Assembly: GCA_009695045.1 (NCBI GenBank)
Contig: SIBS01000005.1
Coordinates: forward strand, 1 to 46,850
DNA length: 46,850 nucleotides
Source: Candidatus Levyibacteriota bacterium
GTDB taxonomy: Bacteria > Patescibacteriota > Microgenomatia > Levybacterales > UBA12049
Direction: 5' to 3'
Shown: piece after piece, positions 1 through 30,246 of the stretch
Numbering within the stretch: the first letter of the stretch is position 1
Layout of the letters: every line of letters begins with the position of its first letter
The notes under the pieces: model-generated
Seen by the model: the letters and a program-made list of their open reading frames with translations, nothing else
What the model was told of the DNA's origin: nothing
Database searches by the model: none
Translations under genes and position numbers: made by a program

Positions 1-933
1 CTAGACGCCCTAACTTATGCTGGCAATCTCAGAAATTTCTCGGAAGAAATGCAAAAAAGCTCACGATTTAGATTTGTATATGGAGATATACGCAATGCTC
101 CGCTTGTAGAAAAACTAGTAAAAGAAACAGACATCATACTTCATTTTGCTGCAGAAACTCATGTAACTCGGTCTATATATGAGAATTCAAAATTTTTTGA
201 GACAGATGTCCTTGGAACTCAAGCAGTAGCTAATGCGGTCCATATACACAAGAAAACAGTTGATCGCTTTATACATATATCTACATGCGAGGTGTATGGA
301 GCAGGACAGACACAAAAAATGAATGAGTCTCATATTCTCAATCCACATAGTCCCTATGCAGCAGCCAAAGCAGGCGCAGACCGACTAGTATATTCTTACT
401 ATGTTACCTATGATATTCCAGCAGTTATTATCAGACCATTCAATATATTTGGCCCCCGTCAACATCTTGAAAAAGCTATCCCACGATTTATCACAAGTGG
501 TCTACTCGACGAACCGCTAACGGTTCATGGCGATGGAAAATCACAAAGGGACTTTATGCACGTGAAGGATGTTTCAAGAGCAATCGATTTAATAATGCAT
601 GCTCCAATCGATACAGTAAAAGGAGAGGTATTTAATATTGGCTCTGGTAAGGCTATATCTATATTAGATATAGCGCACTACATAGCAAAGTATATGAATA
701 ACCCAAAATCCAGTGTAAACTTTGTTGGTGAAAGACCAGGACAAGTCTCTACTTTTGAATGTGATTACACCAAAATCAATGGCTTACTTGGCTGGGAACC
801 AAAAATGGACTTTTATGAAGAGCTTAATGCGACAATTGAATGGTATAAGCATAATAAGGACGTATGGGAGCCTCAATTATGGCTTCGTCAGGTACCCATC
901 ATCCTTGCAGATGGTAGCGTAGAATTACACTAA
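1..933 (+). CDS. NAD-dependent epimerase/dehydratase (extended SDR, RmlB/dTDP-glucose 4,6-dehydratase-like), 5' truncated by window edge
   Basis: Frame 1 is open from base 1 (LDALTYAGNLRNFSEEMQKSS...), so the M at 49 is probably not the true start. RmlB-like motifs LTYAGNL, HFAAETHVTRSI, CEVYG, SPYAAAKAGADRL (YxxxK), RPFNIFGPRQ. Confidence 0.85.
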   Translation, partial: LDALTYAGNLRNFSEEMQKSSRFRFVYGDIRNAPLVEKLVKETDIILHFAAETHVTRSIYENSKFFETDVLGTQAVANAVHIHKKTVDRFIHISTCEVYGAGQTQKMNESHILNPHSPYAAAKAGADRLVYSYYVTYDIPAVIIRPFNIFGPRQHLEKAIPRFITSGLLDEPLTVHGDGKSQRDFMHVKDVSRAIDLIMHAPIDTVKGEVFNIGSGKAISILDIAHYIAKYMNNPKSSVNFVGERPGQVSTFECDYTKINGLLGWEPKMDFYEELNATIEWYKHNKDVWEPQLWLRQVPIILADGSVELH

Positions 934-934
934 A

Positions 935-2065
935 ATGAAAGTAGAATTTTATCGACACAACGTTGGCGAAGATGAAATTGAGTCATGCGTGAAAGTTCTC
1001 CAGTCCCTCTTCCTAACAACAGGTTCTGTAGTCGATGACTTTGAATCTGCACTTGCAGAATACTTGGGCACAGAATCTGTGGTTGGCCTTACACACTGCA
1101 CGGGTGCCCTACAACTCTCTCTTATTGCAGCGGGTGTAAAGCAAGGAGACGAGGTTATTACCACTCCCATGTCTTTTGTTGCAACCTCACATACAATTTG
1201 CATGGCAGGCGCAACTCCTGTATTCGTTGATGTTGAAAGAGAAACTGGAAATATAGATGCTAACTTAATTGAACAAGCTATAACAAAAAAAACTAAGGCA
1301 ATTCTGCCAGTACACCTATATGGTCAGATGGTCGATATGAAAAAAATACTTGCGATCGGTGAAAAATATAATCTCCACGTCATAGAAGATGCCGCCCACG
1401 CACTCGAAGCAGAGCGAGACGGTATTCGTCCTGGACAAAAATCATTTGGGGCTTGCTTCAGCTTTTATGCAACAAAGGCAATAACATCTGGAGAGGGAGG
1501 GGCATTTGCAAGCAATTCCGCAGAAAATGCAAAAAAAATAAGGCAACTTAGATCACACGGGATTACCAGTGAGGTAGCTCAAAGAAATCGAACGGGTCTG
1601 CACACATATGACATTGATAGACTTGGTTGGAAATATAATATGGACAATATCCAAGCAGGAATACTACTTACTCAAGTGGGTAAAATAAATGCCATTCGTC
1701 AAAAACGAGAAGACGTTGCTCAAAAATATATAGCTGGATTCGGCGGTAACCCACAGATAAAGATTCCAAAAGAATATGATGGGATTGTACACGGAAGACA
1801 CATATTTGCTATTTGGGTAAATCCAGAAAAAAGAAATAAGATTCTTGAGTATCTAAATACTAATGGGGTTGCATCTGTAATAAACTACCCAGCAATTCAT
1901 TTATTTTCGTACTACAGGGAGAAATTTGGATTTAAAGATGGAATGTTCCCAATTGCAGAAGAAATAGGAAAACGAGAGATAACACTCCCAATGTATGCAA
2001 AACTTACGGATGAAGAAATTGAATATGTTATAGACACCGTAAAGAAAGCAGTTTCTATTAGCTAA
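935..2065 (+). CDS. DegT/DnrJ/EryC1/StrS (ArnB/PseC-like) PLP-dependent sugar aminotransferase
   Basis: GDEVITTPMSFVATSHTICMAGATPVFVDVE, KTKAILPVHLYGQ, VIEDAAHALEA, FSFYATKAITSGEGGAF (PLP lysine region), WKYNMDNIQAGILLTQ. Confidence 0.92.
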   Translation: MKVEFYRHNVGEDEIESCVKVLQSLFLTTGSVVDDFESALAEYLGTESVVGLTHCTGALQLSLIAAGVKQGDEVITTPMSFVATSHTICMAGATPVFVDVERETGNIDANLIEQAITKKTKAILPVHLYGQMVDMKKILAIGEKYNLHVIEDAAHALEAERDGIRPGQKSFGACFSFYATKAITSGEGGAFASNSAENAKKIRQLRSHGITSEVAQRNRTGLHTYDIDRLGWKYNMDNIQAGILLTQVGKINAIRQKREDVAQKYIAGFGGNPQIKIPKEYDGIVHGRHIFAIWVNPEKRNKILEYLNTNGVASVINYPAIHLFSYYREKFGFKDGMFPIAEEIGKREITLPMYAKLTDEEIEYVIDTVKKAVSIS

Positions 2066-2750
2066 TCTTCTTTGCCCTAATAGCAACCTGAATATATCCC
2101 GGGGAAGCAATATCATCCTCCATCATCTTCTCAAAATAGGGCATAACGGGCATCTTCATTCGAAGGATGTGTTTAAAAAAGTAAAAGGAAAGTGCATAAA
2201 ACGAACTAATAAATGACCCAACGTGCGTTATCTCTTCGACCTTATATCCTGAATCTTCCAGCATTCCCACAAGCTGTTCATCTGAATAATGCCTATGACC
2301 TGCCAACCAATATGCAGGATCCAAAAGATCAGACCAGAAGTTCTTCTGAACCGTTGCTAAGAACAAATATCCATTTTTATTTGTGACTCTATTTATCTCT
2401 TGTATTGTTGCCAATTCATATCCTATTGGAATATGTTCGATAACATCCCAAAAAGTAACAACGTCAAACTTTTGATCAAAAGGAAGCTTATGAGATAGTG
2501 CCTCTACGCACTTTACTCTCGGAAGTTCATTTTTCAGAACTTTCAACGCCTTTTCTTCCGCATCAACTGCAGTAATTTCTTTTGCTAAGTTATAGATGAG
2601 TACTGCATAGGGACCAGTCCACGAACCCAAGTCCAACACCACTTTGTCTTTTATATACTTTTCTGAAAAAGAAAAATAAAACTTATGTTCTCCTTTTGCC
2701 TCTGTTTTATCAACATTTTGCGCAAAAGACATTTTTTTAGGAGTTTGCAT
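2058..2750 (-). CDS. class I SAM-dependent methyltransferase
   Basis: VVLDLGSWTGPYAVLI (motif I), ITAVDAEEKAL, FDVVTFWDVIEHI, EINRVTNKNGYLFLATV. Confidence 0.88.
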   Translation of the reverse strand: MQTPKKMSFAQNVDKTEAKGEHKFYFSFSEKYIKDKVVLDLGSWTGPYAVLIYNLAKEITAVDAEEKALKVLKNELPRVKCVEALSHKLPFDQKFDVVTFWDVIEHIPIGYELATIQEINRVTNKNGYLFLATVQKNFWSDLLDPAYWLAGHRHYSDEQLVGMLEDSGYKVEEITHVGSFISSFYALSFYFFKHILRMKMPVMPYFEKMMEDDIASPGYIQVAIRAKKIS

Positions 2751-2810: not shown

Positions 2811-4301
2811 ATGCTAATTAGTCTCATTATACCATTATTAAGTCTGGCTCTACAATCATATCCTAGATTTTTTAATAAATACTTTGGCGTTGATGTATGG
2901 ACTAGGCTTCTTGAAATTGACCACGTAAAGCATGCCAATCATCGAATTCCTGGAAAAATAAAAAAAGGCTTTATCATAGAAGGATCTTTTGACTATCCAA
3001 TAATATTCCCATGGATTTTTTCTTTTTTTTCAAAAAAAACTCTATTGCAGATTCAAGGGTTTGTTTCACCATTTTTTGACTGCCTACAAAATGTTTTAGT
3101 TTTTTACATAACCGTGTCTCTCACAAACAATGTACACACTGCCCTAATAGCACAAGCCATGTATACTCTCATACCTATTATACCAATTGAAAATAGCTAC
3201 CTTACTCCACGCTCGCTAGGATATCTTAATTTCACACTCGCTTTCTATCCCATATTCTTATTTCATATAAATCACAATACTGCTCTACTGTTAATCTCCC
3301 TATTCTTCACCTGTACGCTTTTTCTAACGCATAGATTCGCACTGCAATCATTCGTGATTATATCTATTTTCTTCTCAATCGTTGACCAATCACCTATCTA
3401 TTTATTAAACGTGCTATTGGGTTTTATTATCGTTATTATTGTAACCCGTGGATTTTATATAACAGTTGCTAAAGGACACTTATACAATATTTATTTCTGG
3501 GTTATTAACTATAAATACAGATTTGCTCATCAAATATATGGATTAGACTCCAGGAAGAAAATTGACTGGGTCGGTAAAGTATATTTCTTGCTTTCATTTC
3601 TATCTCCTGTTTTTCTATTTGCCATGAATATTTGGGCATTTTCTGGTATTGTCTATTTATATCTCTACTTTCAAAAAGCTCCCAACCTATTCATAGATAT
3701 AGTATATTTTAAAATGGCCTTGTGGATTGTATTTTTCTATATCTTTGGGTCGATTGTTCTCAAGATAAAAAAACTAATACCAATCGGGGAAGGACAACGA
3801 TATATGGAAATGGCATCTGTTCCTTCCGTAATTTTGTCTTCTATGCTATTCACTTATTTCTCGAGCCACTATAATATGATTACAACAGTAGTATTATGCT
3901 TACTATTGATTATGAACCTTATAGTTATTCTTACCATACAAATAAAAGCAGTCATTCGTGATAAGAATCGATCCTTAACAGAGGATCTACAAAAAGCATA
4001 TGTATTTATTAACAAGCTAAAAGGAACTCCGAGACTCATCTGCATACCGCATCAGATAACAACCATGACCGTATATAATACAAAAGCAGATGTTTTGGTA
4101 AACGCTGACAATCCTGGGCTTATGCAAGTATCGGACTTTTATCCAATTCTTAAAAAGTCGATCAAGGAATTACAAAAGAAATATGATCTAGAATACTTAC
4201 TGATAAATGAAGAGTTTGCAACACTAGAAGATATTAAGGTAAAGAGTCCAAAAGTTGTCTTTAAGTCTAATGAAATTAGTGTTATCCAACTAGCTAGATA
4301 A
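2811..4301 (+). CDS. polytopic membrane protein, putative GT-C-like family (paralog of 5097-6587)
   Basis: The ORF track starts at 2685, but Met43 (atg at 2811) aligns with the paralog N-terminus and the ORF-track start would overlap the divergent gene. Multiple TM segments plus C-terminal soluble domain; motifs FGVDVWT, IPGKIKKGFIIEGSFDYP, IENSYLTPRSLGY, GEGQRYMEM, LICIPHQITTMTVYNT. Confidence 0.85.
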   Translation: MLISLIIPLLSLALQSYPRFFNKYFGVDVWTRLLEIDHVKHANHRIPGKIKKGFIIEGSFDYPIIFPWIFSFFSKKTLLQIQGFVSPFFDCLQNVLVFYITVSLTNNVHTALIAQAMYTLIPIIPIENSYLTPRSLGYLNFTLAFYPIFLFHINHNTALLLISLFFTCTLFLTHRFALQSFVIISIFFSIVDQSPIYLLNVLLGFIIVIIVTRGFYITVAKGHLYNIYFWVINYKYRFAHQIYGLDSRKKIDWVGKVYFLLSFLSPVFLFAMNIWAFSGIVYLYLYFQKAPNLFIDIVYFKMALWIVFFYIFGSIVLKIKKLIPIGEGQRYMEMASVPSVILSSMLFTYFSSHYNMITTVVLCLLLIMNLIVILTIQIKAVIRDKNRSLTEDLQKAYVFINKLKGTPRLICIPHQITTMTVYNTKADVLVNADNPGLMQVSDFYPILKKSIKELQKKYDLEYLLINEEFATLEDIKVKSPKVVFKSNEISVIQLAR

Positions 4302-4306
4302 CAATA

Positions 4307-5062
4307 TCATTTACTCCATCTAAAGGTGAGATAAGATTCGATTATTTTAAACCCACAAGAGTGATATGTCTTTAAAGCTAACATATTGGTCATTTGGGTT
4401 TCTATGGTGGATTCAGTAATCCCCCATTTTTTAAACTGAGCAAGAGCTGATTTAACCAATGCTTTCCCAATTCCTTTTCCTCGTTGATTTTTATCAACAG
4501 CAATCAAGATAATGCGTCCATTTTTATCCAATGTTAAAAAGCCACAAACAGAATCTGCTTCTTTCCATATAAGAACCATATCTGCTGCTTCACCAGACAA
4601 GGAATTTTTAATCCACTCGCGATAGATCTTATTTGCATTGTCTTTTGAAACTAAAGGATCATTATAGTACCGTGTCTGTGAAAACGATTCAGAAGCCAAT
4701 TTTTGAAGCGATATCAAGTCTTCACTATGTGCGGTTGTAATATTTTTATTCTCTTGACCATCTAAATCTGTGGATATAAGCTTCAGGCTTCCATCTATAA
4801 TTCGAAAACCAAGATCTTCCAAGAGATGAATTGTAGAAAAGTTAGTCGGGGCTATTTTATAAATGACATATTCAACATTTTCTTTTAAGAGACTATCCAC
4901 TAACTCCTGTCCTAGTGCGCGCATGTCATCTTCATTGTTATTTGGAGAAAAAGTGAGAATCTTTGCAGTTTTTTTCTCAAGTATTTCTGAATCGAAAGAG
5001 TCAAAATTCCAAGAAAAAGATCCACTGCTTGAGGTAACACTTATAACATTTTCTTCACTCAT
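4307..5062 (-). CDS. GNAT-family N-acetyltransferase, WecD/RffC (TDP-fucosamine acetyltransferase)-like
   Basis: Acetyl-CoA loop RGKGIGKALVKSAL; layout resembles E. coli WecD: LEDLGFRIIDGSLKL, LQKLASESFSQTRYYNDP, IYREWIKNSLSG, ETQMTNMLALKTYHSCGFKIIESYLTFRW. Confidence 0.8.
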   Translation of the reverse strand: MSEENVISVTSSSGSFSWNFDSFDSEILEKKTAKILTFSPNNNEDDMRALGQELVDSLLKENVEYVIYKIAPTNFSTIHLLEDLGFRIIDGSLKLISTDLDGQENKNITTAHSEDLISLQKLASESFSQTRYYNDPLVSKDNANKIYREWIKNSLSGEAADMVLIWKEADSVCGFLTLDKNGRIILIAVDKNQRGKGIGKALVKSALAQFKKWGITESTIETQMTNMLALKTYHSCGFKIIESYLTFRWSK

Positions 5063-5096
5063 ATTGCAATTATACCAGAAAAGTTTCTCTTAAAAT

Positions 5097-6587
5097 CTAG
5101 ACCTCAATGAGCACAAAATTATCAATTTTCTTTATAACTCTATATTCCTCTATTTTTAAATCTTCGATGGATGCATATGACTCATTCAATAAAATCATGT
5201 CAAGCTTATGCGTTCTCATAATATCCTTAATTGGTTTTTTTATAAAGGGGTATACATCCTTAATTTTATTTATGTGTGAATAATCAGCATTTACAAAAAC
5301 AGGACAACCAGTATGATAAATAGTACTAGTCGTTATTTGATGTGGAATACACAATAACCTCGGTTTTTTTTCTAGAGATAGGAGATAGGCAAACATTTGT
5401 TTCATAGAAGGAGTTAAGGTGCGCATGGTATCTTTAATAATCGCCTTATACTGAATAACAAAAACAGTGACTAATGCTGATATTCCCACCAGGATATATA
5501 TAATAGTAGCTAACCAAGTAAAATTACCAAATTGACCATTCATGAGTAAATAAACAGATAGAAATGCTGCAGGGAAAGCAGACAATTCTAAATATCGTTG
5601 TCCTTCACCCAAAAATCGTAAAGAAGGAATCCAAATTGTAAAAAGAGCAAGAATATATGACCAAATAACCCACCATACCAAACGTTGAATAAATATATCA
5701 GCTGGATATGAGAAAAAAAGTATATAGAGAACGGGTAAAACCCATGGGTTTGTTATAGCAAGTACAAAAGGTGGAAATTTTAAAAATTGATTATATAACT
5801 TAAATACAAAATCTTTTGTTTTATACTCTTCAAAGCTTCCTTTAATTTGATGATAGAATCGATATTTAATTACATCTTTCCAAAAAAGCAAATTTCCTAT
5901 ATGTCCCTTTAAAACCTTTAAATAGAACCCTCTAGACATTACTACCGCAATTAAGAAAGAAGTTAAAAATACTGCAATAAAAAATATGTTTTTTTCAAGT
6001 ACGGTAAAGAATATAGAAAAAAATAAAAATCCCTGTGCTGTAAAACGATGGGAAAGAAAAATGCAAGCTCCTAATATTATTGCCACACCCAAAAATATAT
6101 AATTTCCACTACTCATAAACAAAAATTGAGAAAGCACCACAGCTGAAAACAACATATACCCCAGTGAACGCGGAGTAGCACTAGAATTTTCTATAATAAT
6201 AATAGGAGTTAATATATATAAAAGTTGAGTGAGTAAAGCAAAAACAATACTGTTTGTTATAAGATAAACAAACATAAATATAAATATTAAATGAACAAAA
6301 TCAAAAAAAGGAGAAAAAATAAATTCATACTTTTCGACTAAGCGAAAAGGAAATCTTGAAAGAATCATAATAAAAGCTGGTGGGTAGTCATAATGTCCCG
6401 AAATAATAAAACCATTTTCTATTTTACCGGGAATACCTTTTTGCTTATGATATTCTTTTAAATATAATAAATGGGTCCATATATCTACTCCAAATAGTCT
6501 ATTTTTTAAACGTGGATAAATTTCCAAAAAAACAGCAATGAGTGCTAGAGGGGTACCAATAATAAAAACTAATAATATATTCATCAT
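5097..6587 (-). CDS. polytopic membrane protein, putative GT-C-like family (paralog of 2811-4301)
   Basis: FGVDIWTHLLYL, IPGKIENGFIISGHYDYPP, IENSSATPRSLGY, HRFTAQGF, SRGFYLKVLKGHIGN, GEGQRYLEL, PRLLCIPHQITTSTIYHT; many TM helices. Confidence 0.85.
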   Translation of the reverse strand: MMNILLVFIIGTPLALIAVFLEIYPRLKNRLFGVDIWTHLLYLKEYHKQKGIPGKIENGFIISGHYDYPPAFIMILSRFPFRLVEKYEFIFSPFFDFVHLIFIFMFVYLITNSIVFALLTQLLYILTPIIIIENSSATPRSLGYMLFSAVVLSQFLFMSSGNYIFLGVAIILGACIFLSHRFTAQGFLFFSIFFTVLEKNIFFIAVFLTSFLIAVVMSRGFYLKVLKGHIGNLLFWKDVIKYRFYHQIKGSFEEYKTKDFVFKLYNQFLKFPPFVLAITNPWVLPVLYILFFSYPADIFIQRLVWWVIWSYILALFTIWIPSLRFLGEGQRYLELSAFPAAFLSVYLLMNGQFGNFTWLATIIYILVGISALVTVFVIQYKAIIKDTMRTLTPSMKQMFAYLLSLEKKPRLLCIPHQITTSTIYHTGCPVFVNADYSHINKIKDVYPFIKKPIKDIMRTHKLDMILLNESYASIEDLKIEEYRVIKKIDNFVLIEV

Positions 6588-7721: not shown

Positions 7722-8528
7722 TTATGGTAAGTTTACAGGAAAGTTAAGATCTGAATCGAATCTCCATCGCCTTCGATTACCATCGCTATAATAGTGAAGA
7801 ATTTTAAGTCTATAAAAAATTGCCAAAGTGTCCCAAAGGGTGTTAAATATTGCTTTAGCTAGATTTTTAGATACTAGACTTCCCTCAAAATCAAAAGTAA
7901 GCTCCACGGGTGCATCATAAATCTTTTTATATCCAAGATAGTAAGCAACGACGAGTATTTCTATATCAAAAGCAAACTTCTTGACCAATAATCGTGGCAA
8001 AACATCTTCTATGACTTTTTTCTTAAAGAACTTCATGCCAACCTGGGTATCTCTTACGCTTAAACCAAAAAGGGCACGAATTAATATTTGCGAAGCCACG
8101 CTTGTTGCTCTACGCACGAAAGGATAATGAACTTTTGACAACTCATGCCTCTTACTACCAATAATCACATCTGCATCTAGCTCTTGAAACTTTTCTAACA
8201 ATATAGCCAAGCCATTTGGATTTAGCTCCATACCTGCATCTAAAAAACCAATGATTGTCCCCTTCGCGCGCACCATGCCATATCTAACCGCGTATCCCTT
8301 TCCTTTATTTTTCTCGTATCCAAGCACCTTGATCTTTTTAGAACTCACTTTCTTGGCATTTTCTAGTGTTTTATCCGTTGTCCCATCTACGACAACAATA
8401 ATTTCATATTCATAATTAAGGTGCTCAAGAACATTTTTAATGCGTCGCAAATCTGCCCCTATAGTCTTCTCCTGTTTGAAAGCAGGAATAATTACCGAAA
8501 TTAAATCTTTTTTATTTTGTCTTAACAT
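7722..8528 (-). CDS. glycosyltransferase family 2, ALG5/DPM1-like polyprenyl-phosphate sugar transferase
   Basis: ISVIIPAFKQEKTIGADL, VVDGTTDKT, KNKGKGYAVRYGM, IIGFLDAGMELNPN, DTQVGMKFFKKK. Confidence 0.88.
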   Translation of the reverse strand: MLRQNKKDLISVIIPAFKQEKTIGADLRRIKNVLEHLNYEYEIIVVVDGTTDKTLENAKKVSSKKIKVLGYEKNKGKGYAVRYGMVRAKGTIIGFLDAGMELNPNGLAILLEKFQELDADVIIGSKRHELSKVHYPFVRRATSVASQILIRALFGLSVRDTQVGMKFFKKKVIEDVLPRLLVKKFAFDIEILVVAYYLGYKKIYDAPVELTFDFEGSLVSKNLAKAIFNTLWDTLAIFYRLKILHYYSDGNRRRWRFDSDLNFPVNLP

Positions 8529-9774
8529 AATTAGTAATATAAAATATTATCAAAATAAATAATAATAAGATTGAGGCTACTATAGAAGAATAAACTACTT
8601 CTTGCAAACTATTATGAAAAAATGAAATAAGAATAATCTGGAGAAATGCTGTAAATAAAACAGGAATATAAATAATAGTTTTTTTCAAAGAAAGAAAAAA
8701 ATTAATTAAAATAGAATTAATAGAGAAAGTTGTAATAAAAAAAGCAAAAGGGACCAATAAGGAAACAGCATCAAGATAATCTCTTTTTTTAAGAAAAAAC
8801 AAAATTGAAAACTCAGGAAAGATTTTATAAAAAATTATTATTAATATTGAAGGAATAATAATAAGAATTAAGGCTAATTTAAGAATATCGTTATAATCTT
8901 CTTTATTTTCTAATTTTTGAACTATTAATGGGAACATCACCGTACCTATTGGTGCAGTTAAAAAAAATATTACCCTAGATACTAAGGATATACCAGCATA
9001 TATTCCAGCTTCTTTTGGTTGCATAAAATGTTTAACGATAATAATATCCGACATTATAAAAGAGGTTAATCCTATCAACGTAATTGATGCAGGTAAACCA
9101 TAAAAAATAATTTTTTTTGTCTCAATTGAAATTGCTAAAACTTTTTTTGAAAGTACTTCGCCCAAAGGAAGAAAGCTAATTAAATAACCAACTACTGATG
9201 AGAAAAGTAATGCTCCAAAAGCACCATATACTGAATATCCCAAAAAAACAAATATAATACCTAGAATTAATTTTATTAAAGATGCACTAATGCCTATTAG
9301 GATGGAGAACGAAAAATCAAGTTTTGCTTGAATTAAAAAATTATTTATGGAACTTATATATCCTATAAAAATAATTAAACCACTAATAATAATTAATGAA
9401 TAATCATTAATTTTAAAAAATATACTGATTTGTTGAGAGAAAAATATAAATAATAAAAAAGTAATTAATCCAAGTAAAAAAAGTATGCTCCCAATTTTAA
9501 TATAAAGGCTTCTAATTTTTCCATAGTCTTTTTTTGCATAATATCTTGCAGCAAAATTTACTACCGCAGGCTGAAATGAACCAGCTATCATGCCTGGTAA
9601 AAAAACTATGGATGTTAGGCTTGCTAATGTTCCGTAATCTACAATTGATAAATTTCTACTCATAAATAAATTATAAAAAAAATTGAAAAAATTTACCAAA
9701 ATAGACCCGATAAATATAACAGAACTACCAGAAATTAGAGGATTAATAGCTAATTCTCTTATTTTCTTTTTCAT
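8512..9774 (-). CDS. Wzx-type oligosaccharide flippase (MOP/PST superfamily)
   Basis: About 12 predicted TM segments; N-terminal FYNLFMSRNLSIVDYGTLASLTSIVFLPGMIAGSFQPAVVNFAARYYAKKDYGKIRSL. Confidence 0.85.
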   Translation of the reverse strand: MKKKIRELAINPLISGSSVIFIGSILVNFFNFFYNLFMSRNLSIVDYGTLASLTSIVFLPGMIAGSFQPAVVNFAARYYAKKDYGKIRSLYIKIGSILFLLGLITFLLFIFFSQQISIFFKINDYSLIIISGLIIFIGYISSINNFLIQAKLDFSFSILIGISASLIKLILGIIFVFLGYSVYGAFGALLFSSVVGYLISFLPLGEVLSKKVLAISIETKKIIFYGLPASITLIGLTSFIMSDIIIVKHFMQPKEAGIYAGISLVSRVIFFLTAPIGTVMFPLIVQKLENKEDYNDILKLALILIIIPSILIIIFYKIFPEFSILFFLKKRDYLDAVSLLVPFAFFITTFSINSILINFFLSLKKTIIYIPVLFTAFLQIILISFFHNSLQEVVYSSIVASILLLFILIIFYITNYVKTK

Positions 9775-10838: not shown

Positions 10839-12448
10839 ATTTTAAATCGTTTTCTAAAAACCAAAATAAAAATTCCGATAAGCGAAATTAGACTAATCGT
10901 TGTTGCAATAATTCTAATATTGGTATTTTCAAAAACAACGCGAACAACATGGTTCCCCTCTTCAAGACTCAGTGCAATAATCCCATCCTTATTATATGTT
11001 GTTTGCACTTCTTTTTCATCTACAAAAATTTTCCAACCAGGAAAATAAGCAATTCCAACTAAAATTGTTTGTTTTTTTTCTGTTTTAACAAGAAATTTAG
11101 CCTCGCTTGCACTCTTTTGAAGAAGTTGATATTCTACATTTTCTCCACCAATAACATGATCGTTGTTTTTGACTAATAAGCCATTCATCCACTTGGTATT
11201 AAATACATTACCAGGACTATTTGTACCGTCAATAAAATTAGGTCTCGTTGTGTAATAGCTATCAGGTCGCTCCAAATAATAAGCTGGGGTGGTATATTGC
11301 AAGGCAAAAACTATGGGTAAGAGTAGTAGCGTCAATCGAATAATCCGCCCAGAAAAAGCATTCGCAACATATGCAGATATAAAGGCAGTAAATACTACAA
11401 TAAGACTCAATAATCTCCATGAAAATTGAAAATATGCGATAAGTGGCACGTGTTGCCAAATCCAAGCAGAATAAGAAAGAATAAGATATATTACAAAAAA
11501 AAATGAGCCGAGAAAAAATAACATTAACTTTTTATGTTCATTTTTTATTCTGATCAAAAATATACTACAAAAAACGATAAAAATATTCGCAACTCCTACC
11601 TGATACGACATTTGATTATTTAAATCTGTTGTAGAAAATCCTGTTCCCCAAGATGGGAATATTAATTGAAATAATTCAGGAAAATTATTATTAACATCAA
11701 AGACCTGTAATCCTCTAACATAACCTGTTTCGAATAATGCTGGAATCCAAAATATAGCAGAAATACATAATGAAAGAATTGGAATAATAAACATCTTTTT
11801 TTCACCATGTTCTTTTTTATTTATAAACATAAATAATAAATAAGTAATATAAAATACAAAATACATAAATCCTAATATATTATGTGCAAATATAGTGAAT
11901 GCAAGAAGAATTGAAGATATTATAAAATATTTCATTTTTCTAATATATATGTATTCTGTAGTTCCCCATAGTACTCCTAAAAAAAGTGACATTGCCCATA
12001 TTTCACCTATTGATCCACGTACATAAATATCTACAAATCTATATGGTGAATAAATAAAAAATATACTACCAATGAGAGCGGGAAGATTTCCAAAAAATCT
12101 TCTTAACCATAAATAGGAAAAAATAGATCCAAATAATGACGCTATTATTAAGCTTAATTTAAAAGAATCAATAAAACTAAATCCAAACACATGAATTAAT
12201 GATGCAGCATAATTTGGCAATGGATATACATAATTAAATAATGGTATTCCATATCCATTATTCAGATCTGGGGCCCATCTTGGATAAAGTATTCCACTAC
12301 GTAGAACTTTATCAAATTCATAAAATCTAATAATATGATATTCACCATCATGTGTTGGAATAAGACCATAGTGAAATAGTGATTTTACCGATAACAAGGT
12401 TATTAGAAGAATAAGTATCCAGTAAATATTTTTCTTAACCATGCTCAT
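10835..12448 (-). CDS. large membrane protein, PTPS_related (6-pyruvoyl-tetrahydropterin synthase-related) / YfhO-like
   Basis: IPTHDGEYHIIRFYEF, PRWAPDLNNGYGIPLFNYVYPLPNY, YSPYRFVDIYVRGSIGEIW, C-terminal YFPGWKIFVDEKEV. Confidence 0.82.
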   Translation of the reverse strand: MSMVKKNIYWILILLITLLSVKSLFHYGLIPTHDGEYHIIRFYEFDKVLRSGILYPRWAPDLNNGYGIPLFNYVYPLPNYAASLIHVFGFSFIDSFKLSLIIASLFGSIFSYLWLRRFFGNLPALIGSIFFIYSPYRFVDIYVRGSIGEIWAMSLFLGVLWGTTEYIYIRKMKYFIISSILLAFTIFAHNILGFMYFVFYITYLLFMFINKKEHGEKKMFIIPILSLCISAIFWIPALFETGYVRGLQVFDVNNNFPELFQLIFPSWGTGFSTTDLNNQMSYQVGVANIFIVFCSIFLIRIKNEHKKLMLFFLGSFFFVIYLILSYSAWIWQHVPLIAYFQFSWRLLSLIVVFTAFISAYVANAFSGRIIRLTLLLLPIVFALQYTTPAYYLERPDSYYTTRPNFIDGTNSPGNVFNTKWMNGLLVKNNDHVIGGENVEYQLLQKSASEAKFLVKTEKKQTILVGIAYFPGWKIFVDEKEVQTTYNKDGIIALSLEEGNHVVRVVFENTNIRIIATTISLISLIGIFILVFRKRFKI

Positions 12449-13566
12449 TACTTAACAAACCTCCTCCTTAATATATAAAAAATGACATATAGAATAGGAG
12501 GGATAAATGTGAACAAGATCTTTAGATGCGGTGTGTACCCAAAATAACTTCCAGTATATAGAACAGGTATATACCTTAGAAGTAACGATAAAGAGAAAAT
12601 TATTGCGAGTTGTCGAATAAAATTATTTTTATATAATAATGAGACAAATGGTAAAACCCATATCCAGTACCATGGATAAATCTCTTCCCTTATTGGTGCA
12701 GTAAAAAATACCAGCGTCATTAAAACTAACGATATTAAAAATACCCGCTCCCATTGAATATTCTTTTTCGTTACTTGTTGCCAAATCAAAAATAAAATCA
12801 CAGGAAGTAAGACAATGCTAACATACTTTACTAGGACTGATGCCATAAATACTACCATGCCATAAAAAATTTTCTTTTTTGAAAGCAAAAAATATGATCC
12901 TAGGACCAAAAGCATCATAACGCTATCGTTATGTGAAGAAATAAGTGTCTCGATAATTACTAACGGGTTTAGTAAAAACAATGCAACTGAATACATGTTC
13001 TTTGTAAACCTCCAAATTAGATACCCAATTCCTAGGTAGCAGACGGCCACGATTACTTTCATTACCAATAGGGAGGAAAGAAAACTAATCGAATTAAATA
13101 TATAAGGAATGCCCGTTATTAGAATCCACAAGGGTCCATATAATGCTACCTTATTTGCAGCCCTCGTATATTGCAAAAACTCATCGTTAGAAAACTCAAT
13201 TGGCATTGTAATATATGGATTTTCTTTATATAAGTACAGCACCTTGCTTGTAGTTGTGTAATTAAATATATCAAACGAGAGCATAGCTGGATATGTAAAT
13301 AATAAAATACCAACCGTTATACCAATAATTTTTATAAATAACTTGTCACTAATTTTTTTATTTTCAACACTTCTAAGAAACAGCCAATACCAAAAAAATG
13401 AGACTATAACCATGAGGGCATAGATAATGGCTGACAGCTCGCGGTTCTGGGTGAATATTCCGGTATAGAATGATTGTAAATATATAAAATTTACATCTAC
13501 AAACCCGTAGGAGAACAGTACGAGCGCAAGCAGAAAAGCTAAATATAGACCTAGTATGTGCTTCAT
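12448..13566 (-). CDS. polyprenol-phosphate-mannose-dependent / GT87-like membrane glycosyltransferase (GT-C)
   Basis: LSFDIFNYTTTSKVLYLYKENPYITMP, KVALYGPLWILITGIPY, ISSHNDSVMMLLVLGSYFLLSKKKIFYGMVVF; multi-TM. Confidence 0.75.
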   Translation of the reverse strand: MKHILGLYLAFLLALVLFSYGFVDVNFIYLQSFYTGIFTQNRELSAIIYALMVIVSFFWYWLFLRSVENKKISDKLFIKIIGITVGILLFTYPAMLSFDIFNYTTTSKVLYLYKENPYITMPIEFSNDEFLQYTRAANKVALYGPLWILITGIPYIFNSISFLSSLLVMKVIVAVCYLGIGYLIWRFTKNMYSVALFLLNPLVIIETLISSHNDSVMMLLVLGSYFLLSKKKIFYGMVVFMASVLVKYVSIVLLPVILFLIWQQVTKKNIQWERVFLISLVLMTLVFFTAPIREEIYPWYWIWVLPFVSLLYKNNFIRQLAIIFSLSLLLRYIPVLYTGSYFGYTPHLKILFTFIPPILYVIFYILRRRFVK

Positions 13567-14084
13567 AGCGACTGCTTTCTTTGTGAGATAGATGAATCAA
13601 TTTCGTTATGAAGGTTTAGCTGCGTAGCTTCTTCTTTTTCCGGAGTCCAAGTAAACTCTTGCGGCACAACCTTTTTGAGCGTTTCCAGTACCTCGACATG
13701 TTTTGCAGATGCATTTTTAAGAATCTGCATCTTCTCAGCTACATCCTTCTTTTCTAGCATTGCTTTTCCTAGAGATACATTTGCTTCCTGAAAGTACTTA
13801 TCTGATTTTTTCAAACTTTGAGATCCCAACAGTAGCTGATTGTACTCAAACAATGTCTTTGATTCTATTAAGTATTTGTCTGATAGCTCAAGATTATATC
13901 TAAATTGCGACAGGTTACCAAAATACAAATATTTATTTATTGCCTCTACTATCAGTCGTGCTTTGTACCAAGAACTCCCCGGCATGGATGAAGGATATGG
14001 CAAGACATAGGATGTACCAGCGTGCACCGTTGGAGCAAAAGTTAAGAAAGCAACGAGAAGTGAAGATAGTATAAAAAGCTTCAT
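13563..14084 (-). CDS. small exported DUF5667-like helical protein
   Basis: Likely start at Met10 of the 14111 ORF (MKLFILSSLLVAFLTFAPTVHA signal peptide), giving a 4-bp overlap with galE; SYVLPYPSSMPGSSWYKARLIVEAINKYLYFG...LSDKYLIESKTL resembles DUF5667. Confidence 0.7.
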   Translation of the reverse strand: MKLFILSSLLVAFLTFAPTVHAGTSYVLPYPSSMPGSSWYKARLIVEAINKYLYFGNLSQFRYNLELSDKYLIESKTLFEYNQLLLGSQSLKKSDKYFQEANVSLGKAMLEKKDVAEKMQILKNASAKHVEVLETLKKVVPQEFTWTPEKEEATQLNLHNEIDSSISQRKQSL

Positions 14085-15055
14085 GCTTTTTGACTGGTGT
14101 GCCATTCCCAAGCAGATTTTATAATCGTTTCTAAATCAGAATACTGAGGAACAAATCCAATATCATTTTTTATCCTAGATACATCTGCAATTAAAGCATG
14201 AGCATCTCCCTCTCTTCTTGCCTCCTGTTTTATATTAATTTTTCTACCGCTAACTCTTTCTATAGTGATTAAAACTTCTTTATTTGAATAACCTATTCCC
14301 GTACCTACATTATATATAAAATTCCCTTTTTGATTTTCTAATTTATCAAGAGATAGGGCATGAGCATCAACTAAATCTAATACATGAATATAATCTCTTA
14401 TGCAAGTTCCATCTGGGGTATCATAATCATTTCCGAAAAGAATAAATTCTTTATTATTCAATATTGATTTTATAGCATTTGGAATAAGATGGGATTCATC
14501 TGGATGGTCTTCACCCATAGATCCATCGAGAGCGGCACCACACGCGTTGAAGTAACGAAGAGCAACAGACTGGATTCCAAAAATCTTCCAATACCATTGA
14601 AGTACCTTTTCTGACATTAGCTTACTCTCTCCATATGGATTATTGGGATTCTTCTGATGATCTTCTGGAATTGGAACGGTAACGGGGTCGCCATATACGC
14701 CTGCAGTTGAAGAAAAGATGATTTTTTTGACTGAATTCTTCTGCATAGCTTCCAAAATATTCAAAAGCCCAAATGTATTATTTTCAAAGTAAAGACCTGG
14801 GTTCCGCATGGACTCTCCCATAGAAATATATGCAGCGAAGTGAATAACTGCATCTATTTTGTTCTCTGAAAAAACTTTGGAGATAAATTCTTTATCCAGT
14901 ATATTTCCATTAACAAGTTTACTCGAAGACTCAATCGTACTCCTATGTCCATGCACTAAATTGTCGATAACAATCACAGTATCTCCCTTATCAACTAATC
15001 GCTTGACCATAAAAGATCCTATGTACCCAGCTCCGCCAGTAACGAGTATTGTCAT
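14081..15055 (-). CDS. galE: UDP-glucose 4-epimerase
   Basis: MTILVTGGAGYIGSFMVKRLVDKGDTVIVIDNLVHGHRS, HFAAYISMGESMRNPGLYFENN, NPYGESKLMSEKVLQWY, LRYFNACGAALDGSMGEDHPDESHLIPN, DTPDGTCIRDYIHVLDLVDAH. Confidence 0.96.
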   Translation of the reverse strand: MTILVTGGAGYIGSFMVKRLVDKGDTVIVIDNLVHGHRSTIESSSKLVNGNILDKEFISKVFSENKIDAVIHFAAYISMGESMRNPGLYFENNTFGLLNILEAMQKNSVKKIIFSSTAGVYGDPVTVPIPEDHQKNPNNPYGESKLMSEKVLQWYWKIFGIQSVALRYFNACGAALDGSMGEDHPDESHLIPNAIKSILNNKEFILFGNDYDTPDGTCIRDYIHVLDLVDAHALSLDKLENQKGNFIYNVGTGIGYSNKEVLITIERVSGRKINIKQEARREGDAHALIADVSRIKNDIGFVPQYSDLETIIKSAWEWHTSQKA

Positions 15056-23633: not shown

Positions 23634-25184
23634 TTATTTACTTTTTAAGTAGAAATTATACTGTTTTATTTTATTCCATTGATCATCTTTAATCATTAAG
23701 AGTTTGCTTCTCTTGATATGAAGACATGTTTGTTTATTAGAAAAATAAAAGGGCACGTAGTCATCTATTACAAATTTTGGTAATTTACCACCAAAATAAC
23801 AATTTCCATAATAAATTTCTGGGGGGGATAATTTAAACATCTTAATTCTTTCCTCTGAATATTTCAAAAAATGAGGCATCATCGAGGTGTACCATCCATA
23901 TTTATATTTAGGTATTCTATCTGACTGAATATAAATAATCTCATCCCAACCATCAAGAAATACCGAATCGCTTGAAATAGAAAGTGTCTTGATTATATCT
24001 GCTTGCACCAAATAATTACCATAATTTATCTGATATTCATAAGATCTATCAGTTTTTTCATAAATGAAAGATTTTGGAGAAAATACATGTAAAAAAAGAA
24101 GAATAAATCCAATAAAAATTGGTACTACTTTTTTTTTATTTTCACTTAATAATACAAAAGTAAAATAAGAAGTAGAAAAAAGGAAAATTCCATACCATGG
24201 AATCATATGAAAAGCCTCATAAAACATAGTTCCAGGAAGAACAGGTCTTAAATTAGCAAGTGCAAACGTAAAAATAGAGAAAAAAATAAACTTATTATTT
24301 TTATTAAAAAGAAGGCATATAGTATATATATAAATACTTGATAAGATTATCATATGTAATCTAAGAAATGTAATTTTTCCCTCTAGAAATATGTCTATTG
24401 GATATCCAATAATTCTTAATATTTTTATGATAATTAATTTATCATTAGCAATATTTTCTATTAATATTGAATTTAAATTAATATAAAATACATTATATAA
24501 ATAATCGGTGATAGGAAAAAAAATGAAAATTCCTATCGATAAAATTAAAAATATAAATAACGATGAAAATAGAATTCTATCTTTATTCCTATATAAAAAG
24601 ACTATAACTATATATAACCAAAAACTAAGAGGTGCATATGGCTCTCTCATAAAAATTACAAACCATGATAATATAGGAGCGACAATAACGTCAATTATTG
24701 AAATTTTCTTTAATCTTATTCCATCAAGGCAGATTCCCATCAAGTAAACAAGTGGATAAACAATGATGCCTTCGGCAAGAAAACGATCACCAAAAATATA
24801 ATATTTAATTGATTCATAACAAAGTATAAAAACTAACCCTATAAAATTAAATCTTTTAAAAATTAAAATATTCCAAATAAAGGAAAAGGCAATTAAAAAA
24901 TTTCTATGCACAAGAAGAAGCTCATAAATTGTTTTAGGATGAGAAATGGCTTGAATTAATGCACTAAGGTATGCAGCTAGTGGTTGATGATTAAAGAAAA
25001 TATCTTTATAAAGAATTTTATTCTTCAAAATTAACCAGCCAGCTGTATAATTAAAACAATCATCAAAACATCCAAATGAAGATGTTTTCCTTAAATAAAT
25101 TCTAGATATAGAATATAAAAAAACTAAAAGAAAAATTACTAAAAAATATTTTTTAAAAAATATAATTTTTTTAAATGTTTTCAT
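23634..25184 (-). CDS. polytopic membrane protein, probable GT39-like GT-C glycosyltransferase
   Basis: Likely start at Met13 (25184). FDDCFNYTAGWLILKNKILYKDIFFNHQPLAAYLSALIQ resembles the GT39 first-loop pattern; many TM helices and a C-terminal soluble domain. Confidence 0.65.
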   Translation of the reverse strand: MKTFKKIIFFKKYFLVIFLLVFLYSISRIYLRKTSSFGCFDDCFNYTAGWLILKNKILYKDIFFNHQPLAAYLSALIQAISHPKTIYELLLVHRNFLIAFSFIWNILIFKRFNFIGLVFILCYESIKYYIFGDRFLAEGIIVYPLVYLMGICLDGIRLKKISIIDVIVAPILSWFVIFMREPYAPLSFWLYIVIVFLYRNKDRILFSSLFIFLILSIGIFIFFPITDYLYNVFYINLNSILIENIANDKLIIIKILRIIGYPIDIFLEGKITFLRLHMIILSSIYIYTICLLFNKNNKFIFFSIFTFALANLRPVLPGTMFYEAFHMIPWYGIFLFSTSYFTFVLLSENKKKVVPIFIGFILLFLHVFSPKSFIYEKTDRSYEYQINYGNYLVQADIIKTLSISSDSVFLDGWDEIIYIQSDRIPKYKYGWYTSMMPHFLKYSEERIKMFKLSPPEIYYGNCYFGGKLPKFVIDDYVPFYFSNKQTCLHIKRSKLLMIKDDQWNKIKQYNFYLKSK

Positions 25185-25369
25185 AAATAATAATGACAAA
25201 TATTTAATGTAATAAATCAATAAAATATTAATAAAGAGAGCTATTAAATTGAAAATTTCATATTCTAATAAAAAATTCCCTATAGTAGAAAGAGTGATTA
25301 ACTATTGGCATAAAAGAATGAATTATTTCTAAGTATATGATAGCATACGCAAAGTGCCTATTGTTAAAA

Positions 25370-26710
25370 ATGAAATACTCCACTCGATATCTTGCATTTA
25401 TTCTCGTTATTGGATTCATTTTACGCATAGGTATTTCGTTTTGGTCTTTTGAATATAGAGAAAATACAGATGTACTCAGATACAAAGACTGGGCTAGGAT
25501 TTCATATTTGCATTCCCTAAAAAATACCTATACCACGGATAATTTAGAATTTGGCACACTAGCCAACAATCAACCACCCGGTTCTCTTTATGTTATCTCT
25601 GGCATGTACCAAATTAATTTATATTCTGCGAGAATACTTTTAAAAATACTTCATGGTGCACCTGGCTCAATTCAATGGATCAATGGTTATTTGCTAAATT
25701 TTTATCTACGACTTCCAGCTATGATATGTGACCTAATAATATCATTTCTCATTTACTTATTTATAAAAAAAACCAAGTCGCACAAAGCCGCACTTTCCTG
25801 CATGAGCTTATTTTTATTTAATCCAGTTGTTTTATATAATAGTAGCTTCTGGGGACAAATGGATTCAATAAACAATGCTTTTTTTATGTCTTCGCTGTAT
25901 TTTTTATCTAAAAAGCGACTTTTGCTATTTTTTACCACTTTCTTTTTATCTTTGTATATAAAATTCTCTCTTATTTTTATGTTTCCATTTATTTTGCATT
26001 ATGCATGGACGCTTACTTATCCAAAAATTAAAAATTATGCTTCAAGCATAACTATTTCAGCTTTCTCAGTATTAGCGCTCACACTTCCTTTTTCACGAAC
26101 ACCATGGTTGTGGCTATATGAACTTTTTATTAAAAACGCAGGAGGAGAAATGCAAAATATTACTACTTTTGCATTAAATTTCTGGTGGTTCTTATATAGG
26201 CCAATTATTATAATTGGTAAACCATTTAATAATTTTGAATTTAGCGAGATACTACTCATTGGTTCTCCATTGTCTCAACAGACTTTTCTTAGATTATCTC
26301 TTGAAATATGGGGATATTTGTTGTTTTGTATTTTTTCAGGAATTTTATTCTACTTTCTTTTTAAACAAAATAAAAAAGTATTTTCACATCATATTTTTTT
26401 AATTCTTTCACTTGTTGCGCTTAGTGCTTTTATGTTCTTGCCTCGTATGCATGAACGATACATGTATCCTTTATTTCCACTACTTGCAATTTATGCTGGA
26501 TTAGAAAAAAAAATTCAGATATATTATTATATTTTTTCTTTTATTAATATAATCAATCTGTATCTTGTATGGCATCCTGCTCTTCCCCCACTCATACCAT
26601 ATATATTAATGACAAATGCTACTTTTCAATGGAGTATAAGCGGTATTTCCATATTTTGTTTTTTGAAACTCTTCTACGTAGGCATTAATTATTTAAAGTA
26701 TGAAAAATAA
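25370..26710 (+). CDS. GT-C mannosyltransferase-like membrane protein (GT87/PIG-type)
   Basis: Probable start at Met12 of the 25337 ORF. TDVLRYKDWARI, NQPPGSLYVISGMYQ, NPVVLYNSSFWGQMDSINNAFFMSSLYFLSKKR, FMFLPRMHERYMYPLFPLLAIYAG. Confidence 0.82.
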   Translation: MKYSTRYLAFILVIGFILRIGISFWSFEYRENTDVLRYKDWARISYLHSLKNTYTTDNLEFGTLANNQPPGSLYVISGMYQINLYSARILLKILHGAPGSIQWINGYLLNFYLRLPAMICDLIISFLIYLFIKKTKSHKAALSCMSLFLFNPVVLYNSSFWGQMDSINNAFFMSSLYFLSKKRLLLFFTTFFLSLYIKFSLIFMFPFILHYAWTLTYPKIKNYASSITISAFSVLALTLPFSRTPWLWLYELFIKNAGGEMQNITTFALNFWWFLYRPIIIIGKPFNNFEFSEILLIGSPLSQQTFLRLSLEIWGYLLFCIFSGILFYFLFKQNKKVFSHHIFLILSLVALSAFMFLPRMHERYMYPLFPLLAIYAGLEKKIQIYYYIFSFINIINLYLVWHPALPPLIPYILMTNATFQWSISGISIFCFLKLFYVGINYLKYEK

Positions 26711-29066
26711 TATTATTACAGCTAGTATCATTGGATTCATTTTGACCATATTACTTTTTTTACCTGTTTTTGTAAAAAACCTATATCCTTTCACGGGAGA
26801 TTTTCAAGTTGCTTGGTTTGAGCCATGGAAAAGCGATTCGATGGTGGGAAATTCACTTACTGTTTCACATAAACCAATTGCAGATGACATATTTCGACAA
26901 TTATATCCATTTAAAACCTTCGCCATGAATCTAGCAAGAAATGGAGAAATTCCACTTTGGAATCCATATGGTGGAGCAGGAATGCCTCTTCTTGCTACGA
27001 TGCATGTAGGATACTTAAACCCTTTTAATATTGTTTTCTTTTTCTTTGATAATGCCAATTCATGGAGAATTCTTATCCTATTGCAACCATTATTTATTTC
27101 ATTATTAACATATCTTTACTGTAGAAAGATTAAGATTTCAAAATCAGGATCTCTATTTGGCACCATTGTATTTATCTTTTCTGGATTTGTTGTTACGAGA
27201 AGTATATATGCAGATTACGATTATTCATTAATAGGACTATTAATTCTATTAAATGCAATAGAATGGTACATGCAGAATAAAAAAGGTCTTTTTCTTATAC
27301 CCATTGGTATATTTTTAACCATTACGTCTACACAGATTCAACTATTTCTATATATCGCAATTAGTACAATGATATATGCAATTTTTCGACTTTATACTCA
27401 AGATAAAGAAAACTTTTTTAAAAAAATGGTCAATATTGGGATATTTTTCTTAATCGGCATTGGATTGAGCGCTATCCAAATTATCCCAACATTTGAACTA
27501 TACCAATATGCCAATATTAATACTGAATCTTCGCTATTTATTATTGAACGTTTTTTACTCCCAATGCAACACTTTATTAGTATAGTTATACCAAACTACT
27601 TTGGCAATCAAGCAACATATAATTATTGGGGCTCTGCTGATTACATAGAAACGGTGTGCGCAATAGGTTCAATCCCAGTTTTATTTATGTTCTATATAAT
27701 TCGTAGCAATACTCGCAATGCACTTGTAATATTTTATGGATTAACAACTTTAACAACTATTCTCTTAACGCTTGATTGGTTTTTTACCCGATTTTTATTT
27801 TCGCTACCAATTCCTATTCTTTCTACTGGAATTCCAAGTCGAATCTTATTTCTTAATACATTTTCATTTTCAATTCTTGGTGCAATGGGATTTGATCAAG
27901 TATTACGAAGGGAAGAAACAATAAAAAATTTTCTTATTAAAAATATTCCATTTTTTATTTTAATTTTATATATAATATGTTTTTCTGGTTATGCATACAT
28001 AAATAAACTCCAATGTAATAACTCTATTATTATAAACTGTCGAGAAATAGCAATGCGCAATTTTATTTTCGAATTTATAATACTATTTCTAGGCTTTATT
28101 TCTATTATTTATAATCTTATATTTAAAAAAAGCTTTTATAAAAATTTATCTTCTTATATATTAATTTTTTGTGTCATTTTTGGAGGACTATATAATAGCT
28201 CTAAATTTCTTCCATTTACTACAAAAAGAAATATATTACCCGAAAATAATATTCTTACATATATTAAAAATAAAAACGAGGTGAATAGATTTTTTGGGAT
28301 CGGAAGCGCTTCTATAAAAACAAATTTTGGTACTTATTATAATTTATTTGATCCAAATTATTATGATCCTTTATATATTAAACGTTATGGAGAGCTTATT
28401 GGTTATGCAAATACTGGATCTATTAAAACTTCCAGAAGTGACGTAGAGATAAACAATGTAAATATTACAAGTAATCAACAAAGGCTTCTTAATTTACTCG
28501 GAACAAAATTATTTATATATAAAAAGATTGAATTATCAAAAGAAATAGATAAAAATATGCAAAATTTATTTTCCGATAAAAACTTTACCATTATGCAAAA
28601 TAAAAAATCTCTTCCAAGAGCATATTTTGTACAGAATGTAAAACAAAAAAGGGAAAAGGTTGAAATACTAAATTCTTTATTTTCACCTGATTTCGATGTA
28701 TATACATCTGCTATCGTAGAAGATGATATTAAAATTAAAAATCATTATATATCTGGAATTGTATCAATTTCTAACTACAAACCAAATCAGGTAACCATAC
28801 AATCAAAATCAAATAACCAAGAATTTTTAGTGCTAAGCGACAATTTTTTTCCAGGATGGAAAGCATTCGTAAATAATAAAGAAGTAAAAATATATCGAAC
28901 TAATTACGCATTTAGAGGTATTATTGTTCCAGCTGGAAATAATATAATTAACTTTTTATATGAACCTTTATCTTTTAAGATTGGTGCACTTACCTCTGGT
29001 TTTTTTCTGCTTGTATACTTACTAGCTCTCTTCTGGCCAAAAATAAGAAGTCAAAAATACAACTGA
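26700..29066 (+). CDS. YfhO-family-like large membrane protein
   Basis: DDIFRQLYPFKTFAMNLARNGEIPLWNPYGGAGMPLLATMHVGYLNPFNIVF, FSGFVVTRS, YFGNQATYNYWG, C-terminal FFPGWKAFVNNKEV plus terminal TM helix. Confidence 0.87.
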   Translation: MKNNIITASIIGFILTILLFLPVFVKNLYPFTGDFQVAWFEPWKSDSMVGNSLTVSHKPIADDIFRQLYPFKTFAMNLARNGEIPLWNPYGGAGMPLLATMHVGYLNPFNIVFFFFDNANSWRILILLQPLFISLLTYLYCRKIKISKSGSLFGTIVFIFSGFVVTRSIYADYDYSLIGLLILLNAIEWYMQNKKGLFLIPIGIFLTITSTQIQLFLYIAISTMIYAIFRLYTQDKENFFKKMVNIGIFFLIGIGLSAIQIIPTFELYQYANINTESSLFIIERFLLPMQHFISIVIPNYFGNQATYNYWGSADYIETVCAIGSIPVLFMFYIIRSNTRNALVIFYGLTTLTTILLTLDWFFTRFLFSLPIPILSTGIPSRILFLNTFSFSILGAMGFDQVLRREETIKNFLIKNIPFFILILYIICFSGYAYINKLQCNNSIIINCREIAMRNFIFEFIILFLGFISIIYNLIFKKSFYKNLSSYILIFCVIFGGLYNSSKFLPFTTKRNILPENNILTYIKNKNEVNRFFGIGSASIKTNFGTYYNLFDPNYYDPLYIKRYGELIGYANTGSIKTSRSDVEINNVNITSNQQRLLNLLGTKLFIYKKIELSKEIDKNMQNLFSDKNFTIMQNKKSLPRAYFVQNVKQKREKVEILNSLFSPDFDVYTSAIVEDDIKIKNHYISGIVSISNYKPNQVTIQSKSNNQEFLVLSDNFFPGWKAFVNNKEVKIYRTNYAFRGIIVPAGNNIINFLYEPLSFKIGALTSGFFLLVYLLALFWPKIRSQKYN

Positions 29067-30245
29067 TAAATATCCAATATGACTATTGTTAAAATAACGA
29101 GCTGAATACCAAAAAACAAAAAGGAAAATTCCATATACATAAATAAGTCGTTTTACGCTTGGTTTTTTTTTGAGAAATATTACAAGCCATGCGAGCGTTG
29201 GTAAACCAAGCATAAATTGCCATATTTGAAATGAATAATAAGCTGATTCATTTGCAATTAAACCAAAAGATAAGAGTAGCTTTCCTAATCCATATCCTGA
29301 AATTGGATAGCTATGCGGTGTATTGCCTGATAAATAAAATATTGTACTATTCAAAAATGCTTTATAATCCCAAATTAAAAATGGACCAATTACAATAGCG
29401 CAAGTAATCGAAAATATAACTAAATTTTTTATAAATACATTTAGTTTTTTCAAATTAAACCATAAAAAGGAAAAATAAAGCGGCAATATGGGCCATATAG
29501 ACTGCTTTACACCGAATGCCAAAGCCATAAAAATAGCACCCATGAAGTAATGCTTTTTATAAAGCAGATAAAAGCTAAAAAAGACGAATCCAAACATAAA
29601 CATATCTGATCTTCCCTCTAATGTGTAACTCAATATTGCTGGATTAAAAGCCATAAGAATAATAAATAGAGACCTTTTTTCTTTATCTTTTATAAGAAAT
29701 CCTCCAAGAATTAAAACAGAAAAAAACAAAAACAAAAGTGGGATTCTTCCATCAAAATAACCAATTGTATGATTACTAATATAGTAAAACGGCAAAGCAA
29801 ATATTAAATAAAGAGGTTGATTTACAAAATGATAAAGTGCTGGATTAATTTCTGTAGATGAATAATTCCACGCTTCCATAGGTGTACCAAAATAAGTAGC
29901 GGCATATGGATTTTTTCCATGTATTAGATATCTAATTGCCGCCTCTTGTTGCAATATAATATCGTGAATCATGTATACGGGCGCTGTCTGATGCCTTACG
30001 ATAATTGCAGAGATAAAAGTAGCTCCCAAAATAAAAATAATGCTTAACCATAAAATTACTTGCTTAAGATTTGTTCGTATCGATTCTTTAATAGAAATTA
30101 CATCTAGCAATAGATGCGAACCAAGTAGAAGAAAAATCAAAGTAAATAACCAGTATGGAGTTTCTCCTGGACCAATTCGATGCTCCATAATAAATGGAGT
30201 CACTAAGCAAAATAATAAAATACTACTCAGGGAAATGTTTGTCAT
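29022..30245 (-). CDS. GT87-like polytopic membrane glycosyltransferase
   Basis: Likely start at Met15 of the 30287 ORF (overlapping upstream gene). HDIILQQEAAIRYLIHGKNPYAATYFGTPM, MAFNPAILSYTLEGRSDMFMFGFVFFSFYLL, FGVKQSIWPILPLYF. Confidence 0.72.
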   Translation of the reverse strand: MTNISLSSILLFCLVTPFIMEHRIGPGETPYWLFTLIFLLLGSHLLLDVISIKESIRTNLKQVILWLSIIFILGATFISAIIVRHQTAPVYMIHDIILQQEAAIRYLIHGKNPYAATYFGTPMEAWNYSSTEINPALYHFVNQPLYLIFALPFYYISNHTIGYFDGRIPLLFLFFSVLILGGFLIKDKEKRSLFIILMAFNPAILSYTLEGRSDMFMFGFVFFSFYLLYKKHYFMGAIFMALAFGVKQSIWPILPLYFSFLWFNLKKLNVFIKNLVIFSITCAIVIGPFLIWDYKAFLNSTIFYLSGNTPHSYPISGYGLGKLLLSFGLIANESAYYSFQIWQFMLGLPTLAWLVIFLKKKPSVKRLIYVYGIFLFVFWYSARYFNNSHIGYLSVVFLTSYFWPEES

Positions 30246-30246
30246 A

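Follow-up and report, generated by a model that had tools for sequence, protein, structure and literature searches.

The window analysed here comprises the whole of contig SIBS01000005.1 (46,850 nucleotides) from a Candidatus Levyibacteriota bacterium (genome G000). Close to its beginning lie two genes, A (P0001; 2811-4301, plus strand) and B (P0002; 5097-6587, minus strand), which are oriented convergently, tail to tail, and encode multi-spanning membrane proteins of 496 amino acids each. The boundaries are those given in an initial annotation of the DNA and were found to be correct. The earliest in-frame ATG of the A frame is located at 2685; position 2811 was taken as the start because its first residue is close to where the relatives begin. 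A and B align from end to end with 36% identity and 59% similarity across 495 residues (320 bits), while the top score in 1000 shuffles was 29 bits. The two genes are, as initially proposed, a diverged paralogous pair. Each of the two proteins contains every motif of the ordered set that had been listed for them, among these FGVDxWT, DYP and CIPHQITT, and across 14 relatives most of the motifs are invariant or almost so. A TATAAT hexamer is located about 16 bases 5' of the 2811 ATG (2785-2811), and another lies 8 bases 5' of the ATG of the gene between the pair (5062-5085). Judged from the sequence, this spacing suggests leaderless transcripts or transcripts with a very short leader.

The gene between A and B (4307-5062, minus strand) encodes a GNAT acetyltransferase whose proposed resemblance to WecD, an enzyme type acting in nucleotide-sugar N-acetylation, was confirmed by matches to NCBIfam NF008212 (E 2e-30) and to the TDP-fucosamine acetyltransferase 2fs5 in the PDB (E 1e-14). 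A convergent pair flanking a GNAT gene thus exists in this genome, but elsewhere other genes separate A and B: a PMT_2 GT-C in G001 and G044, and phosphoesterase, SDR and ATP-grasp genes in G003. As the intervening gene differs among genomes, the GNAT gene is not a fixed part of the pair, and a GNAT-centred module was ruled out.

Upstream of A, the window starts with a gene encoding an SDR resembling dTDP-glucose 4,6-dehydratase (1-933, plus strand), which is truncated by the contig start and matched TIGR01181 with an E value of 5e-77 but a score short of the model's cut-off; its full-length orthologue in G044 reaches E 1e-95. It is followed by a DegT/ArnB/PseC-like sugar aminotransferase gene (935-2065, plus strand), whose nearest solved relatives are ArnB-type enzymes and QdtB, and by a SAM methyltransferase gene that is a conserved neighbour of A (2058-2750, minus strand). 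The combination of SDR, DegT and methyltransferase beside A is kept in G003, G005, and G044. The minus-strand genes upstream of B encode a GT4, a GT2, a flippase of the Wzx type, a second GT4, and a PTPS_related protein, in an order that is common to G003 and G044 and largely to G167. The GT2 (7722-8528) resembles dolichol-phosphate-mannose synthase (5mlz, E 1e-17) and ArnC (9hwj, E 2e-8) and is a candidate for making a lipid-linked donor. The adjoining flippase is of the Wzx/MATE type (8512-9774).

In G209, G236, and G264, the family gene is located near other SDR/DegT/acetyltransferase cassettes; the G001 contig is too short for the context to be judged. In G236, a formyltransferase akin to the formyltransferase half of ArnA (L054, 10769-11692) directly adjoins the family member, which suggests that an amino sugar is formylated in G236. 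Neighbours predicted to make activated amino-deoxy sugars recur almost everywhere, and the islands are also full of other transferases. The window itself harbours many more large membrane proteins of the GT-C type (10835-31740, 33361-39459, and 44204-46841). Pfam matches among them are to PMT_2 (three), PTPS_related (three), YfhO (two), and DUF7657; those without a Pfam match include the products of 12448-13566, 23634-25220, 25337-26710, 29022-30287, 30247-31740, and 45906-46841. Because the locus holds so many other GT-Cs, neither a sugar nor the GT2 can be assigned to A or B from context. A small predicted exported protein with a DUF5667 match just under the cut-off is also encoded within the glycan locus (13563-14111).

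Searches of A and B against Pfam, NCBIfam, and PHROG returned no credible model, only weak scattered matches to unrelated ones, and no credible match was found among PDB sequences. Pfam matches to DUF378, FLAD1_M, and PgaD were weak, occurred in one or two members each, and were judged to be due to chance. The family therefore has no name, as had been surmised, and our search of the literature on GT-C enzymes in CPR/Patescibacteria found nothing about it. Genome searches identified relatives in 11 Patescibacteria genomes, all of one class: seven belong to the same order (G000, G001, G003, G005 with a fragment, G020, G044, and G070) and four to another family of that class (G167, G209, G236, and G264). 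A phylum-wide sample of 380 genomes yielded no further relatives beyond this class, and none were found on viral contigs or plasmids. Beyond Patescibacteria the search consisted of a scan of GTDB contigs with a single protein as query, which has low sensitivity; one contig matched. As far as searched, the family appears confined to one class of Patescibacteria.

In a tree of 14 proteins, the sequences of the 5097-6587 type (group B) form a single clade with support of 100/100, and group A together with single-copy relatives makes up the other side. Four genomes, all from a single order (G000, G001, G003, and G044), have A and B in the tail-to-tail arrangement. Orthologous B proteins share 62-66% identity, compared to 36-41% between the two copies inside one genome; for this reason the pair is regarded as old and stable, while the intervening genes vary. 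In G264, the full-length copy (L027, 1495-3030) has retained D35 and R331 and has lost both HQITT, the segment reading CLPQKIAY, and the acid of DYP (VYP); it is the one relative lacking CIPHQITT, and its C-terminal domain or its acceptor may have changed. About 2 kb from this diverged copy, near 449341-449487 of G264:C1 (L033, 1471-1653), there is a 60-codon remnant of a family gene in which the N-terminus is fused to an apparent C-terminal end (LNMKSLLFETETI), as though a deletion had removed the central part. The remnant adjoins an SDR gene, at the place occupied by the intact gene in G209 and G236.

Structural models of A and B were generated with AlphaFold2 using shallow alignments of four sequences each, drawn from the window and related loci. 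Model quality was moderate (pLDDT 68 for B and 67 for A; pTM 0.70 and 0.68), with pLDDT values below 50 in loop 1 and in the region of R243/H246. The initial annotation had guessed a GT-C-like fold, and when the models were compared to the PDB by Foldseek, every match with E ≤ 0.05 was a GT-C enzyme for both paralogues, ahead of all other structures. The B model matched STT3 (2e-5), AftA (1.6e-3), PglB (7e-3), and ArnT (4e-2), and the A model matched STT3 (3e-6), DPY19 (4e-4), PglB (4e-4), and AftA (7e-3); transporters and receptors came next with E values of about 1 or worse. The matches have large rmsd values and TM-scores of about 0.5. At the level of predicted models, the comparison supports membership in the GT-C class and does not extend to details or, since loop 1 is poorly modelled, to active-site geometry. 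The models have about 11 transmembrane helices, and the loops with the conserved residues emerge on the same membrane side as the C-terminus. In our reading, the conserved loops and the domain containing CIPHQITT would share that side, provided that the N-terminus is cytoplasmic. The motif does fall within a soluble C-terminal domain, as had been suggested: according to the AlphaFold2 secondary structure, about 105 residues form a predicted extracytoplasmic alpha/beta domain (3981-4298, plus strand, in A; 5100-5411, minus strand, in B).

Profile comparisons linked the family to GT-Cs of the PMT_2 type. The family profile matched two PMT_2 proteins in other genomes (5e-7 and 6e-7), and hhalign aligned it to an alignment of six PMT_2-type proteins, which included PMT_2 neighbours of the pair, with a probability of 92% (E 7e-7, 167 columns). 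A Wzx flippase alignment used as negative control gave a probability of 0.05%. The similarity is significant over TM2-TM6, and both families have an acidic extracytoplasmic loop 1; DYPP of the family falls on [DE]xPP of PMT_2, and ENSxxTPRS on SRxxxxEN. PMT_2-type relatives also adjoin the pair in G001, G003, G044, and G070. The two families differ in loop 2, which reads E-N-x5-P-R here and S-R-x4-E-N in PMT_2, and in the single invariant loop-1 acid of A and B; moreover, none of the 14 members matches PF13231 at the Pfam gathering score. Three further sets with PMT_2 members and one PTPS_related set (A5-A8, small alignments of other GT-Cs of the window) gave no significant alignment to the family, so that the relation to PMT_2 GT-Cs is specific and distant.

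GT-C enzymes have characteristic loop patterns, namely DxD (with D or E) in loop 1, R and/or D/E/N/Q in loop 2, R or K in loop 3, and Rx4-14P in the last loop (PMC6801728), and at least the first Asp is common to all transferases compared (PMC7801869). The family has the GT-C_A patterns except for the canonical DxD of loop 1. Directly after TM1, the Asp of GVDxW (D28 in GVDVW of A, 2886-2900, plus strand; D35 in GVDIW of B, 6477-6491, minus strand) is invariant in 14/14 relatives, and we propose it as the catalytic Asp. Loop 1 has no conserved two-acid DxD, DD or DE: the motif is D-[VI]-W, this Asp is the lone invariant acid, and in group B a second acid is missing from its vicinity altogether. 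In loop 2, E133, N134, and R140 are invariant in all 14 members, in the order E..R, which is the reverse of Rx4D in STT3 and POMT; each of them also carries R or K at position 181 of loop 3. The last extracytoplasmic loop contains Rx7P (Q-R330-Y-x-E ... P338 of A, 3795-3824, plus strand; Q-R331-Y-x-E ... P339 of B, 5571-5600, minus strand), with R and P invariant (14/14). This motif likely binds lipid phosphate. FGVDxWT and DYP had been considered together as a possible active-site loop. The conservation of the two acids favours this for FGVD and less so for DYP: D67 is kept in 10/14 members, though it aligns with [DE]xPP of PMT_2, and since the other four members have N or V, it is unlikely to be essential.

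Taken together, we consider A and B to be extracytoplasmic glycosyltransferases of the GT-C_A type that belong to a surface-glycan locus and take their sugars from polyprenyl-linked donors, with a probability of roughly three in four. Homology, fold class, conserved loop residues, and gene context are the observations behind this assignment; the reaction, donor, acceptor, and split of labour that we infer are as follows. A sugar would first be loaded onto polyprenyl phosphate by a cytoplasmic glycosyltransferase, for which the adjacent GT2 is the likely candidate. A flippase would then bring the lipid-linked sugar to the outer membrane face, where A and B would transfer sugars from the lipid carriers to a surface glycan. 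D35 would serve either as the catalytic base or as a ligand for a metal, and R331 would hold the lipid phosphate, with the C-terminal domain assisting in acceptor binding; we propose that A and B use two different sugars or acceptors. Because the genes adjoin those for amino-dideoxy-sugar synthesis, an N-acylated amino-deoxy sugar is a possible donor, in a function like that of ArnT. Lipid-donor synthase, flippase, and GT-C are an established unit for sugar addition outside the membrane (PMC8035078, PMC11127046).

We also considered that A and B are oligosaccharyltransferases like STT3 and PglB, which move an entire glycan off polyprenyl diphosphate and onto a protein or another glycan. STT3 and PglB are indeed among the top fold matches of both models, and the nearby Wzx-type flippase and several GT4 and GT2 enzymes could build such a lipid-diphosphate glycan. 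We nevertheless regard this as unlikely: loop 3 has R/K in place of the N/Q of STT3 (PMC6801728), and the C-terminal domain comprises merely about 105 residues. STT3 membership proper was ruled out, as the WWD motif is missing from all 14 members and PF02516 matches neither any member nor any protein of the window's genome. A related possibility, a lineage-specific pair of this kind that transfers lipid-diphosphate glycans en bloc to two acceptors by means of a lone loop-1 Asp and a loop 2 of swapped charge, with E..R instead of R..D/E, seems decidedly unlikely; if true, it would represent a mechanistically distinct subclass of GT-C_A.

Polymerases of the Wzy type or ligases of the WaaL type, which belong to GT-C_B and related clans, would fit a locus that has Wzx-type flippases and polysaccharide genes and whose scanned proteins included none recognised as an annotated polymerase. 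This assignment is very improbable, since the family is significantly related to PMT_2 GT-Cs, its long conserved loop with the invariant Asp follows TM1, and WaaL/SEDS-like GT-C_B structures are absent from the fold matches. Finally, A and B could be membrane proteins that have lost catalysis, the many other GT-C-like genes of the locus doing the work, or they could be transporters. We give hardly any credence to either, since 20 charged or polar positions, including D35, E133, R140, and R331, are invariant across the family and transporters appeared in Foldseek at E values of about 1 or above.

As extracytoplasmic GT-C_A transferases, A and B would add to the GT-C class a family whose proposed active-site residues can be tested. 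Patescibacteria are small and known mainly from genomes, and how they build their surface is poorly known; the 15 PMT_2 matches in this genome of 677 kb point to surface glycosylation as a heavy investment. The family also flags amino-deoxy sugar loci, which are open to chemical search.

Among characterised systems, STT3/PglB (GT66) provides the best fold match and shares the D-x-[aromatic] of loop 1 and the R-x7-P of the last loop; A and B differ from it in the motif, Pfam match, loop 3, and domain size discussed above. ArnT (GT83) is a weaker GT-C_A fold match that likewise has a C-terminal extracytoplasmic domain; the ArnB-like aminotransferase and the ArnC-like GT2 encoded near A and B also recall its gene context. 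In contrast to its D55/E56, the family has a single acid, and no sequence similarity to ArnT was detected with PDB sequences or Pfam/NCBIfam models. The arabinosyltransferase AftA (GT53) and ORF12 of GT136 (PMC11127046) share the GT-C_A fold, and GT136 also the arrangement of donor synthase, MATE flippase, and GT-C; both belong to other sequence families, and A and B are without an added carbohydrate-binding domain. Compared to these systems, A and B are an unnamed family added to the known GT-C class rather than a new kind of system.
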